A DNA stretch of 64,000 nt from Archangium sp. (GTDB lineage: Bacteria > Myxococcota > Myxococcia > Myxococcales > Myxococcaceae), in assembly GCA_030695565.1 (NCBI GenBank), contig JAUYRZ010000121.1, positions 62,001 through 126,000 on the forward strand, read 5' to 3'. A program made the position numbers and the translations under genes. Positions 10,273-64,000 of this stretch are shown piece by piece (within the stretch, counting starts at the first letter, position 1; each line of letters starts with the position of its first letter). The notes beneath the pieces were generated by a model that was not told the origin of the DNA, did not search any database, and saw only the letters and a program-made list of their open reading frames with translations.

Positions 10273-10686
10273 TCAGGAAGCCGCGGCTTGCGACACGAGC
10301 ACCCACACCGAGTCAGTGCCCTGCGAATAGAACAGCGTGATGGCCACCCTTCTGGGCCCGTGAGCGAAGTTGAAGACGAACCCGAACGTCTCGTACAGCT
10401 CCCGCCGGCGCACGCCTTCGAGAAAGCGGCCCTGAAACTCTTTGACCTTCGTGCACGGCGCCACGTCTTCGAAGAAGTTCCGCCCCAGCTGGCGGCCCTG
10501 GTTGATGCGCGCGAGTGACGCCTCGGTCTTGTTGAACTTGAGAATCTTGCCCACGCGGTCGAGCTGAATGAGCCCGTGAGGAAGGTCATCAATTTCCTGA
10601 GGGTTGAGCTGTTCGACCCGCTTGAGGAGCCCCTCGAGATTTTCAGGGCTGGGAACCTGCGCCACGGAGATCAGTCGCTTTTCCAT
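10273..10686 (-). CDS. pyp-like: Photoactive yellow protein (PYP) homologue, single PAS domain
   Basis: 137 residues from the ATG at 10686; a GTG at 10707 would add seven. It aligns without gaps to Halorhodospira halophila PYP over residues 38-132 with a constant offset of nine: GLIQLD..G.IL..N..E, NFFEDVAPCT, EF.G.F.EGV, and a DS.WV.V end. Cys78 corresponds to the p-coumarate-binding Cys69 and Glu55 to Glu46. Four pocket positions differ: Phe51 for Tyr42, Ala59 for Thr50, Ile61 for Arg52, His109 for Met100. PYPs are blue-light sensors that attach p-coumaric acid by thioester. No tyrosine ammonia-lyase or coumarate-CoA ligase gene is in this window, so chromophore loading is unproven. The N-terminal 37 residues match PYP only loosely. 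Nearest upstream gene is the TIGR02996 protein, 60 bases away on the same strand. Confidence 0.85.
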   Translation of the reverse strand: MEKRLISVAQVPSPENLEGLLKRVEQLNPQEIDDLPHGLIQLDRVGKILKFNKTEASLARINQGRQLGRNFFEDVAPCTKVKEFQGRFLEGVRRRELYETFGFVFNFAHGPRRVAITLFYSQGTDSVWVLVSQAAAS

Positions 10687-10746
10687 GAGGCGAAGAGGAC
10701 CACGCACTCTCTGACGAACGTCACCCCGCGATTGGGGAGCGCTTCA

Positions 10747-12213
10747 TCAAGAATCGGCGAGCCGCGTGAACGGCTCTGCGTTGAGCCACTTCTTCGTCAG
10801 AGCGGGCCCCATCTCGAGCTTCGGCCCCAGCCGGTGCTTCAACTCCAACGACACGAGCTCTTCCGGTGCGCGCACGGTCACCGCCTTGAAGCGCTTGCAC
10901 AACGCGGGGCTCAACCCGGCCAGCTCGCGCTGAAGCTGCCGGCCGCCGTGCCAGATCAATTCGGGCCGTTCCAGCTTCGGATCCTCCTCGAGGCGGAACC
11001 GCAGCTGCCAGCCTTTGAGCTGCGGCAACCACGCCTGTGAATCGAGAAACGAGACGTGGTGCAGCCCCGGCCCGCGCTGCGCGAGCACGTCCTTCCGCCA
11101 GGCTTCCCAGCTGGGCCCGCCCTCGTAGACGAACAGCTGCTCGAGCTGCTGCCACGGCAACTCGGCCTGCTTGAAGCCCAGGCTGGGCATCAACCACAGC
11201 GCCTTCAAGCCGCTGAGGCCCGCGAGGTGTTTGGGTTGGAGATCGCCGCGAGCCCACAGCCCCACGCGTTCGAGCCGCGGGTTCTTCAGCTTCGCCGCGG
11301 TCTCGAGCTCGAGCCAGAAGAGCGACTTCAGCGCCTTCGACGACCTCGCCACCGAGAGCATCGCAGGCTGATTCTCCCGCATGCGATCGGCGAACAGATG
11401 TTCGACCGTGCCCCACTCGCGAAACTGCTCCTGGCCTGCGAGCCGATCCACCACGGCGGCCGTCAAGAAGCCGCGTTCGAACGCCTCGAGCTTCGAGCCT
11501 TCCATCGCGGACTGATTGAGCTGAAGCGGAAAGACCCAATCGCGAAAATGACTCGCCACCAGCGCCGCGGCCTGGCGCCTCGAGGCCACGGAGCCCGCGT
11601 TGGGACCCAGCTGCAGCGCGAAGAGTTCACCGCGCGGATCGCCGCGTTCCAACAACGCATCGCCGTAGACCGCGCGCGCACCCGCATCCTCTGGAGCCGC
11701 GTGCACGGCAGCGAGCAGCGCCTCCTCACGCGGCGGCTTCGGGTTCACCACGGCGGAGAGGTCGGTTCTCGTCTCCACCACCACCTTCTCCAGCTCCTTC
11801 AAGGCGGCCGCGACGCGCTCGGGTTCATCGTCATCGAACTGCTCGAGGTACCAGCGGGCCCCGACGTCGCGCGACTGACCGATGACCTCGATGATGACGG
11901 GCATCAGCTCCGCACGCGCTTCCGGCCCCAGGGACACCAACACCGGCTGCAGCACGCTGCAGACCCGCGGATCATCGAGCGCGCCGAGGGCTCTGACCTT
12001 CTTCTCCGCGCCGGCGAGACCTCCGCACAACAAGAGCTCGAGCAGCTCCTGGAAGTTGCGCTCGCGCTCTGCCTTCGCCCAGGCGCCTTCGAGATCACCT
12101 GCCCTGGGCGCCCGCCGCACCCGGAGCCCCAGCCGGCGCCGCAGCTCCTCGGCGAGCCGGGGATCACGCGTACTGCGCCAGGCGGTGAGCAACACCTCGT
12201 CGGGCGCCGCCAC
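10747..12213 (-). CDS. TIGR02996-domain protein with leucine-rich-like repeats
   Basis: 488 residues from a GTG at 12213, two bases after the TAG of the upstream transporter gene; the purine-rich GAAGTGAAG there serves as ribosome site, so translation is coupled. Residues 1-170 are helical, HEAT-like. The TIGR02996 motif AVYGDALLERGDPRGELF lies at about residue 190, followed by a FERGFL turn. The C-terminal half has repeating L..L.L strands (LKSLFWLELET, then LERVGLWARG, then LKALWLMPSLG) consistent with degenerate LRRs. No signal peptide. Function unknown; these proteins are usually thought of as binding scaffolds. The pairing with a peptide transporter may be only positional. Confidence 0.78.
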   Translation of the reverse strand: MAAPDEVLLTAWRSTRDPRLAEELRRRLGLRVRRAPRAGDLEGAWAKAERERNFQELLELLLCGGLAGAEKKVRALGALDDPRVCSVLQPVLVSLGPEARAELMPVIIEVIGQSRDVGARWYLEQFDDDEPERVAAALKELEKVVVETRTDLSAVVNPKPPREEALLAAVHAAPEDAGARAVYGDALLERGDPRGELFALQLGPNAGSVASRRQAAALVASHFRDWVFPLQLNQSAMEGSKLEAFERGFLTAAVVDRLAGQEQFREWGTVEHLFADRMRENQPAMLSVARSSKALKSLFWLELETAAKLKNPRLERVGLWARGDLQPKHLAGLSGLKALWLMPSLGFKQAELPWQQLEQLFVYEGGPSWEAWRKDVLAQRGPGLHHVSFLDSQAWLPQLKGWQLRFRLEEDPKLERPELIWHGGRQLQRELAGLSPALCKRFKAVTVRAPEELVSLELKHRLGPKLEMGPALTKKWLNAEPFTRLADS

Positions 12214-12215
12214 GA

Positions 12216-13700
12216 CTACTTCACTTCGCCCATCAGCCGGCGCACGAGCGGCGAGATGCCGATCAACACCACGCCTGCGATGAGCGCGTAGATGGCCAGC
12301 TGTTGATAGCCGGCGGTGTACGAGATGAGCTTCTCCGAAGCGGTGGCCGTCGGGCTCGGCAACGACATGCCGGCTCCCAGCAGGCCCGCCGCGTACTGGC
12401 CGTAGGCGCTCGCGAGGAACCACATGCCCATCATCACGCCGCCCAGCCGCTTGGGTGACAGCTTGGTCATGATGGACAACCCGATGGGCGAGAGGCACAG
12501 CTCACCGAAGGTGATCACCAGGTAGGCGAGCGTGAAGACGTCGAGCGAGGTCTGGCCCGAGGCGTCCGCGAAGAAGCGCGTCGCGTAGAACACCCAGAAG
12601 GCCGCCGCGAGGAAGAGGAAACCCAGGCCGAACTTCACCACCGTGTTCGGCTCGACCTTCTTCTTCGCCAGCGCGATCCAGAGCAGGCCCAGCAACGGCG
12701 CGAAGATGATCACGAACAACGAGTTGGCTGCGTTGTTCACGCCGTTGGGATCCAGCGGGATGACGCCGAGCAACGTGTCGTTGAGGTTGTTGGCGGCGAA
12801 CAGGCTCAGCGAGCCGCCCGATTGTTCGAAGAAGGCCCAGAAGATGATCGAGAAGAGAACGAAGACCATCGCCGCCGCGAGCTTCTTGCGCTCGTCAGGC
12901 GTGCAGCGCGTCATCTCGAACCCGACGTAGAGCAGCGTGAGCGGCCCAATCGTGTACATGAAGTAGTCGGTGAGATCGGTCTTCGAGACCATCGTCATCA
13001 AGACGGGGATGACCGCGAGCGAGCCCGCGTAGGTCGCGTAGTCCAACCACTTCTTCTTTGCTTCGTCGGGCTGGCCGTGCCGCGGCGAGAGACCGATGGG
13101 CCCCAGGGAGTGTCGGTTGAACCAGAACCAGATCACGCCGATCGCCATGACGATCGCGGTCAGGCCGAAGGCCACGTTCCACGAGTGGTTCTTGCCGAGG
13201 TAGATGGGGATGTAGCCGCCGAGCAACGCTCCGACGTTGATGCCCGAATAGAAGAGCGAGAAGCCGGCATCGCGGCGCGGGTCACCCTCCTTGTAGAGCG
13301 TGCCCACCATGCTGGAGATGTTGGGCTTGAAGAAGCCGGTGCCCACGATGTTGAAGGCGATGCCGAGGAAGAAGAACTTCTTGGGGTCAACGGCGAGGAT
13401 CAAGCTGCCGACGATCATCAGGAGGCCGCCCCAGACCAGCGACCGCCGGAACCCGAGGATCTTGTCGGCGAACAACCCGCCCACGAAAGTGAAGGCGTAG
13501 ACGAACGCCTGCGTCGCCCCGTACTGCAGGTTCGCCACGCTCTCGGACATCAGGAGCTGGTTGACCATGAAGAAGGTCAACATCCCGCGCATGCCGTAGA
13601 AACTGAACCGCTCCCACATCTCGGAGAAGAAGAGCGTCCACAGCTGCTTGGGGTACTTGCCCTCGAAATTCTGGATCGCGCTCAGCTCAAGAGGATTCAC
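12216..13700 (-). CDS. POT/PTR2-family proton-coupled peptide transporter
   Basis: 494 residues from a GTG at 13700; longer readings run through the divergent promoter region. The POT signature FFSEMWERFSFYG (ExxERF proton-coupling motif, about residues 20-32) and the PTR2 motif GFSLFYSGINVGALLGGYIP are intact. About 12-14 hydrophobic helices are visible, with a family-typical length. It should import di- and tripeptides with protons across the inner membrane. Myxobacteria live on prey protein, so a peptide permease fits. The downstream TIGR02996 gene is coupled. Only 31 bases separate it from the divergent kinase gene, so promoters must overlap. Confidence 0.93.
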   Translation of the reverse strand: MNPLELSAIQNFEGKYPKQLWTLFFSEMWERFSFYGMRGMLTFFMVNQLLMSESVANLQYGATQAFVYAFTFVGGLFADKILGFRRSLVWGGLLMIVGSLILAVDPKKFFFLGIAFNIVGTGFFKPNISSMVGTLYKEGDPRRDAGFSLFYSGINVGALLGGYIPIYLGKNHSWNVAFGLTAIVMAIGVIWFWFNRHSLGPIGLSPRHGQPDEAKKKWLDYATYAGSLAVIPVLMTMVSKTDLTDYFMYTIGPLTLLYVGFEMTRCTPDERKKLAAAMVFVLFSIIFWAFFEQSGGSLSLFAANNLNDTLLGVIPLDPNGVNNAANSLFVIIFAPLLGLLWIALAKKKVEPNTVVKFGLGFLFLAAAFWVFYATRFFADASGQTSLDVFTLAYLVITFGELCLSPIGLSIMTKLSPKRLGGVMMGMWFLASAYGQYAAGLLGAGMSLPSPTATASEKLISYTAGYQQLAIYALIAGVVLIGISPLVRRLMGEVK

Positions 13701-61125: not shown

Positions 61126-63147
<2,022 letters not shown>

Positions 63148-63156
63148 GAATCGAAG

Positions 63157-64000
63157 CTACGCGATCCCGCCCGGAAAGCGTGCCAGCGATGATTTCGACG
63201 AACGAAACGTGTTCTTCCCCGCGGCCTTGGCTTCGTACATCGCCACGTCGGCGGCCTTCAGCAGCTCGGTGGGCGTTCGACCATCGAGGGGGTGCAACGC
63301 AATACCAATCGACGCACCAATCTGTGCCTGAACGTCGCCGCGAACGATGGGCTCGTTGACCGAGGTGACGAGGAGGCCGGCGATGCGCTGCACCTCCTCG
63401 AGGCTCGCGGGGTTGTCGAGCAGCACCACGAACTCATCGCCGCCCAATCGCGCGACGGTGTCGGTCTGGCGAACCAGGCCCACGAGGCGACCGGCCACGG
63501 CACGAAGCACCTCGTCTCCAACCTCGTGCCCCAGGGTGTCGTTGACCGCCTTGAAGCCATCGAGATCGAGAAAGAGCACCGCGATCTTGCGTTCTTCACG
63601 GGCGGTCGAAGCAATCAACTGGCCCAGACGCTCCAGGAGCAGCGTGCGGTTGGGGAGGTCGGTCAGCGCGTCGTAGAGCGCGAGCTTGCGGGTGCGCTCT
63701 TCGTGGTGCCAGCGCTCCGTCACGTCGTTGAAGACGAAGACGTAGCGCTGGGCATTGGCGGCGAGCGTGGTCGTCACGCGCTGCCACTGCCGAAAGACGC
63801 TGCCGTCCTGTCTGCGCGCCCACGACTCGCCTTCCCATCGTTGGTGTTGCACCAGGTCGTGCGCCATCGCGGCGGCGAACCCCGTGTCGTTCCTCGTCGA
63901 GCTGAGCAGGTTCACTCGCTGACCCACGGCCTCGGCCGCCGCGTAGCCGGTGATCTGGGTGAACGCAGGGTTCACCGAGACGATGATGCCGTTGACGTCG
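63157..64000 (-). CDS. PAS-GGDEF diguanylate cyclase, 5' end outside the window
   Basis: The gene is open to the window edge. The visible part begins in a PAS domain (SVNPAFTQITGYAAAEAVGQ, then the C-terminal cap VFVFNDVTERWHHEERTRK), followed by a GGDEF domain: DALTDLPNRTLLLERLGQLI, FLDLDGFKAVNDTLGHEVGD, and an intact active site RLGGDEFVVLL. RQTDTVAR five residues before GGDEF carries an RxxD inhibitory I-site, so product feedback is expected. The domain ends with NTFRSSKSS. It should make c-di-GMP, which the PilZ protein at 29598 could bind. No EAL domain follows. More sensor domains may lie upstream. Confidence 0.92.
   Translation of the reverse strand, partial: DVNGIIVSVNPAFTQITGYAAAEAVGQRVNLLSSTRNDTGFAAAMAHDLVQHQRWEGESWARRQDGSVFRQWQRVTTTLAANAQRYVFVFNDVTERWHHEERTRKLALYDALTDLPNRTLLLERLGQLIASTAREERKIAVLFLDLDGFKAVNDTLGHEVGDEVLRAVAGRLVGLVRQTDTVARLGGDEFVVLLDNPASLEEVQRIAGLLVTSVNEPIVRGDVQAQIGASIGIALHPLDGRTPTELLKAADVAMYEAKAAGKNTFRSSKSSLARFPGGIA

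Follow-up and report, generated by a model that had tools for sequence, protein, structure and literature searches.

The window, by which we mean the whole 64,000-nucleotide stretch of Archangium sp. DNA analysed, carries on its minus strand a gene that, judged by profile, tree and predicted fold, is a genuine photoactive yellow protein (PYP) and stands away from generic PAS domains. The distinctive feature of its pocket in the alignment is a histidine at position 100 (H. halophila PYP numbering for pocket residues), and the protein belongs to a Myxococcaceae subfamily defined by this residue. The subfamily represents a variation within a known photoreceptor family and not a new kind of system. 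On the sequence and the structural model taken together, we consider it likely that the protein is a single-domain PYP of this subfamily that carries a chromophore, is photoactive and signals.

PYP serves as a reference photoreceptor in a well-studied family; myxobacterial PYPs, fusions of PYP to a V4R domain and natural Phe42 were all known before. Myxococcota account for 9.7% of 984 PYPs (PMC12826048), an origin of PYP in Myxococcota was proposed in a 2022 survey (PMC9664959) and Stigmatella aurantiaca has been reported to possess a PYP (PMC11832031). A 2025 survey tabulates twelve PYPs for which spectra are published, and no myxobacterial one is among them (PMC12826048). The His100 proteins, whose pocket is fixed and different, could serve as natural tests of how colour, pKa and recovery depend on residues 42, 50, 52 and 100; in several of the genomes that encode them there is a second PYP with another residue at position 100.

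Membership of the PYP family

The features discussed are the following.

10273..10686, minus strand: gene of the PYP-family protein, 137 amino acids, with its ATG at 10686 and its stop codon ending at 10273
10453..10455, minus strand: Cys78 (Cys69 of PYP), codon TGC, by alignment the expected site of p-coumarate thioester attachment; invariant in 25 orthologues
10522..10524, minus strand: Glu55 (Glu46 of PYP), by alignment the expected proton donor to the chromophore
10534..10536, minus strand: Phe51, in place of Tyr42 of PYP; Phe in 24 of 25 orthologues, Tyr in the orthologue L031
10510..10512, minus strand: Ala59, at the position of Thr50, where Ala is the family consensus (alignment and PMC12826048)
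10504..10506, minus strand: Ile61, at the position of Arg52, where Leu is the family consensus (alignment and PMC12826048)
10360..10362, minus strand: His109, in place of Met100 and followed by Gly; the subfamily hallmark, His in 25 of 25 orthologues
10576..10578, minus strand: His37, at the position of Phe28; His in the window protein alone, Phe, Leu or Tyr in 24 relatives
10747-12498, minus strand: TIGR02996-domain gene, 60 bp upstream of the PYP gene and on the same strand

A GTG at 10707 is a possible alternative start of the PYP gene, and a search for a sigma-70-like promoter found none. As to residue 28, it is Phe in H. halophila PYP, in most other PYPs and in 12 of the 25 orthologues.

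The window protein matches the NCBIfam model for photoactive yellow protein, TIGR02373, with an E-value of 2.6e-29, well outside the range of chance. Its 101.8 bits lie below the curated cut-off of 143.05, but this is no argument against membership since the clade C (60-62 bits) and Ppr-like (134 bits) PYP domains miss the cut-off as well; the model is narrow. PYP structures in the PDB are matched without gaps at E-values from 1e-19 to 2e-21. The best of them is the Ppr-PYP of R. centenum (1mzu, E=2e-21), which has the pocket cysteine and glutamate in common with the window protein but derives from a phytochrome histidine kinase, whereas the window protein is single-domain and has His100. H. 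halophila PYP (2phy and others; E about 2e-19) aligns through its residues 15-123 with residues 24-132 of the window protein. The two share Cys69, Glu46, most of the pocket and the predicted fold at 34-36% identity; they differ at positions 42, 50, 52 and 100 and in the N-terminal 20-odd residues, which cannot be aligned. The gapless stretch of ~109 residues is longer than the 95 of the original prediction, whose residue readings (Y42F, T50A, R52I and M100H, with E46 and C69 kept) proved correct.

A tree was built from 60 PYP domains together with 14 PAS domains taken from the genome of the window protein. It separates the two sets with a support of 94/89, the PAS branches being long, and places the window protein inside the PYP clade, so that the phylogeny, named in advance as a possible refutation of PYP status, upheld it together with profile and predicted fold. 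By the family characters of Xing et al. (2022; PMC9664959), the conserved Cys69 is present as Cys78, at least one of Tyr42 and Glu46 is retained (Glu46, position 42 being Phe) and the protein groups in this tree with PYPs, not with other PAS domains. A PYP fold is likewise predicted: with the AlphaFold2 model of the window protein (pLDDT 85.6), the top 40 Foldseek matches are all PYP or FAST structures (3.6e-13 to 4.7e-10), while the first non-PYP PAS domain appears at 5e-7. The matches include 8dzu, an engineered M100H PYP; since it was crystallised, the PYP fold tolerates His100.

The His100 subfamily in Myxococcaceae

The search for relatives covered 96 genomes from the family and found a PYP match at the threshold of 1e-12 in 33 of them. 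About 25 of the matching proteins are orthologues with 55-69% identity to the window protein, and they come from several genera, including records named Hyalangium, Pyxidicoccus and Myxococcus. Ile31, Glu46, Ala50, Ile52, Phe62, Val66, Ala67, Pro68, Cys69, Phe96 and His100 are invariant among the 25, and the single exception to Phe42, L031, is a divergent sequence. Pocket columns are thus invariant in 11 of 12 cases as against 42 of 113 columns overall (hypergeometric 6e-5, with kinship ignored). Conservation of the whole pocket points to constraint and not to decay; the possibility, raised by the original prediction, of a PAS domain that has lost chromophore binding is disfavoured by this and by the tree. 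Histidine 100 itself is fixed in sequences as much as 51% different from one another, its codon being CAC in 17 and CAT in 8 of them; the nearby positions 99 and 102 are variable. All usable pairs gave a dN/dS (Nei-Gojobori) below 1 with a median of 0.40, values that are rough owing to saturation and high GC.

In the tree, 24 His100 sequences cluster at a node with a support of 95/66 that also holds two sequences from another family lacking His100; without L031 the remaining 23 are supported at 99/87. Apart from them stand a group that includes a PYP-V4R fusion (Phe100, Leu52; 99/98) and a Trp100 group (98/100). In these Myxococcaceae groups residue 100 is accordingly His, Phe or Trp depending on the group, followed each time by Gly101, and the canonical and clade C PYPs of the sample have Met100. 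We saw His100 in no PYP outside the group, in a sample almost wholly made up of Myxococcota and a few plasmids. It is always accompanied by Ile52 instead of Arg52 (25/25). Phe42 occurs in separate places of the tree, namely in the His100 group, in L086/L088, in L058 and in a clade C copy from Caballeronia.

The pocket had been described as altered at four positions and as possibly that of an uncommon PYP variant. Of these positions His100 alone is out of the ordinary. Ala50 and Leu52 form the consensus of the family (PMC12826048), which makes Ala50, and Ile52 beside Leu52, ordinary, and Phe42 is natural in 8.9-9% of PYPs (PMC9664959, PMC12826048). T50A and R52I mark a difference from H. halophila PYP but none from the family consensus, so how altered the pocket looks depends in part on the reference chosen. 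The variant is uncommon as a subfamily but not a single oddity, 24 other orthologues sharing its pocket.

The myxobacterial PYPs that form a group of their own with Trp100-Gly101, and mostly with Arg52, are L068, L069, L071, L074, L086, L088, L091, L092 and L034. Several genomes carry a Trp100 copy and a His100 copy side by side.

Expected photochemistry and its alternatives

The window protein probably senses blue light by means of a coumarate chromophore, with colour and recovery retuned. p-Coumarate would arrive as a CoA thioester and be bound by Cys78; Glu55 would hydrogen-bond the phenolate and give up its proton after light-driven trans-cis isomerisation, and partial unfolding would then pass the signal to a putative partner protein. 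With both Tyr42 and Thr50 missing, the phenolate should depend for its hydrogen bonding mainly on Glu46, which would be the sole classical donor left; one would therefore expect the spectrum to be red-shifted or to show two bands and the pKa of the chromophore to be raised. In the H. halophila Y42F mutant, species near 446 nm and near 400 nm coexist as a thermal mixture, and the mutant's crystal structure shows Thr50 in the place of Tyr42 (PMC9664959, PMC12826048); the PYPs with Ala50 that have been measured absorb at 435-465 nm (PMC12826048). Naturally Phe42 PYPs resemble the window protein in keeping Glu46 and Cys69, and Phe42 is never paired with loss of Glu46 in Cys69-bearing PYPs (PMC9664959, PMC12826048).

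The loss of Met100 and Arg52, with His100 nearby, should change the rate of dark recovery, which may become pH-dependent. Mutants of Met100 recover slowly. The residue has been proposed as a catalyst of reisomerisation (PMC9664959), and in the pB state of H. halophila PYP Arg52 is hydrogen-bonded to the phenol oxygen of the chromophore (PMC11003764). One might go further and suppose that His100 stands in for Arg52, pairing with the displaced cis-chromophore and exchanging protons with it, and thereby provides a titratable, pH-gated recovery unlike that of any measured PYP and selected across Myxococcaceae; we regard this as quite unlikely. Our search of the literature found no published experiments on the His100 clade.

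A PYP fold might also operate without p-coumarate and sense something else, be it redox state through Cys69, a small ligand, or a metal held with Cys69 and His100. Such a role could account for the substitution of Tyr42, Arg52 and Met100 and for the absence of chromophore genes nearby, and it has a precedent in the neofunctionalised PYPs proposed for methylobacteria (PMC9664959). However, the methylobacterial cases have lost Cys69, while here this residue is invariant in the 25 orthologues along with Glu46, F62, V66, A67, P68 and F96, and we find a sensor of this kind unlikely. It is highly improbable that the protein is an ordinary PYP with the same function as that of H. halophila and a pocket changed by neutral drift. 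Although Ala50 and Leu/Ile52 are common, Phe42 reaches about 9% of the family and residue 100 differs between myxobacterial groups (Met, Trp, Phe or His), His100 is fixed at such divergence between variable neighbours, and Y42F does perturb the spectrum of H. halophila PYP (PMC12826048). That the protein is a generic PAS domain whose cysteine is there by chance, as might be read from Pfam, which reports PAS only, deserves next to no credence with tree, profile and fold all siding with the PYPs.

Genomic neighbourhood and chromophore supply

The surroundings of the window gene differ from the pyp-pcl-TAL operon of H. halophila, which has no counterpart at the locus. Comparison of the window with 19 other orthologue neighbourhoods recognised no tyrosine ammonia-lyase (TAL), coumarate-CoA ligase or signalling gene as conserved beside the PYP gene. 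Among pyp operons in general, TAL is found in only about 5% and pCL in about 32% (PMC12826048), so that chromophore genes in the operon are no defining mark of a PYP. The TIGR02996-domain protein and the POT transporter next to the window gene are not conserved elsewhere. A subset of Hyalangium/Myxococcus/Pyxidicoccus type has a common block read as acyl-CoA thioesterase, PYP, nucleoside kinase and glycerophosphodiesterase, and none of these neighbours is plausible as a PYP partner. Phages gave no match to the PYP. PAS matches (PF00989) lie near the right end of the window, at about 62275-62622 and 63721-64000 on the minus strand.

That no coumarate-making genes are in view is true of the gene's neighbourhood in the window, but the genome encodes two MIO-type lyases, one HutH-like and one TAL-like that lies elsewhere. 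The best NCBIfam match of the latter is the tyrosine ammonia-lyase family BagA/FevW (388 bits, under the cut-off, with the HutH model at 382), and its best solved relative is a tyrosine aminomutase. A supply of p-coumarate inside the cell by this putative TAL is plausible. At a distance of roughly 9-14 kb from the lyase gene are two ketosynthases, a FabG-type reductase and a flavin halogenase-like gene, in an order which we take to recall aryl-polyene/flexirubin pigment clusters. Annotated on the same contig (C17; L039:4903-7344 and L111:1959-7464) are the TAL-like lyase, ketosynthases, a FabG-like reductase, a halogenase-like flavoprotein and acyltransferases, and no AMP-binding ligase was matched there. 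An alphaproteobacterial pcl query, run without a positive control, had no match at 1e-10 in the genome, and 17 AMP-binding enzymes are present in it. Across the 96 family genomes, TAL-like lyase and PYP do not co-occur preferentially (both in 17, PYP only in 16, lyase only in 26; Fisher p=0.39, uncorrected for relatedness).

The same genome contains a second PYP domain, fused to a C-terminal V4R domain (L002:1441-2490; contig C123, about 108.9-109.9 kb). Like the window protein, this PYP-V4R fusion, of a type already described (PMC12826048), has a myxobacterial PYP domain with Ala50 and Gly101, but it differs in Tyr42, Leu52, Phe100 and the V4R domain. About nine of its Myxococcota relatives have a C-terminal extension of similar length. 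Finally, a histidine kinase (L003:736-1812, minus strand, contig C108) contains a PAS domain with Tyr42, Glu46, Arg52 and a Cys at position 69, without the preceding Ala-Pro; it falls on the PAS side of the tree on a branch near the PYPs, and its sequence makes it a possible intermediate.
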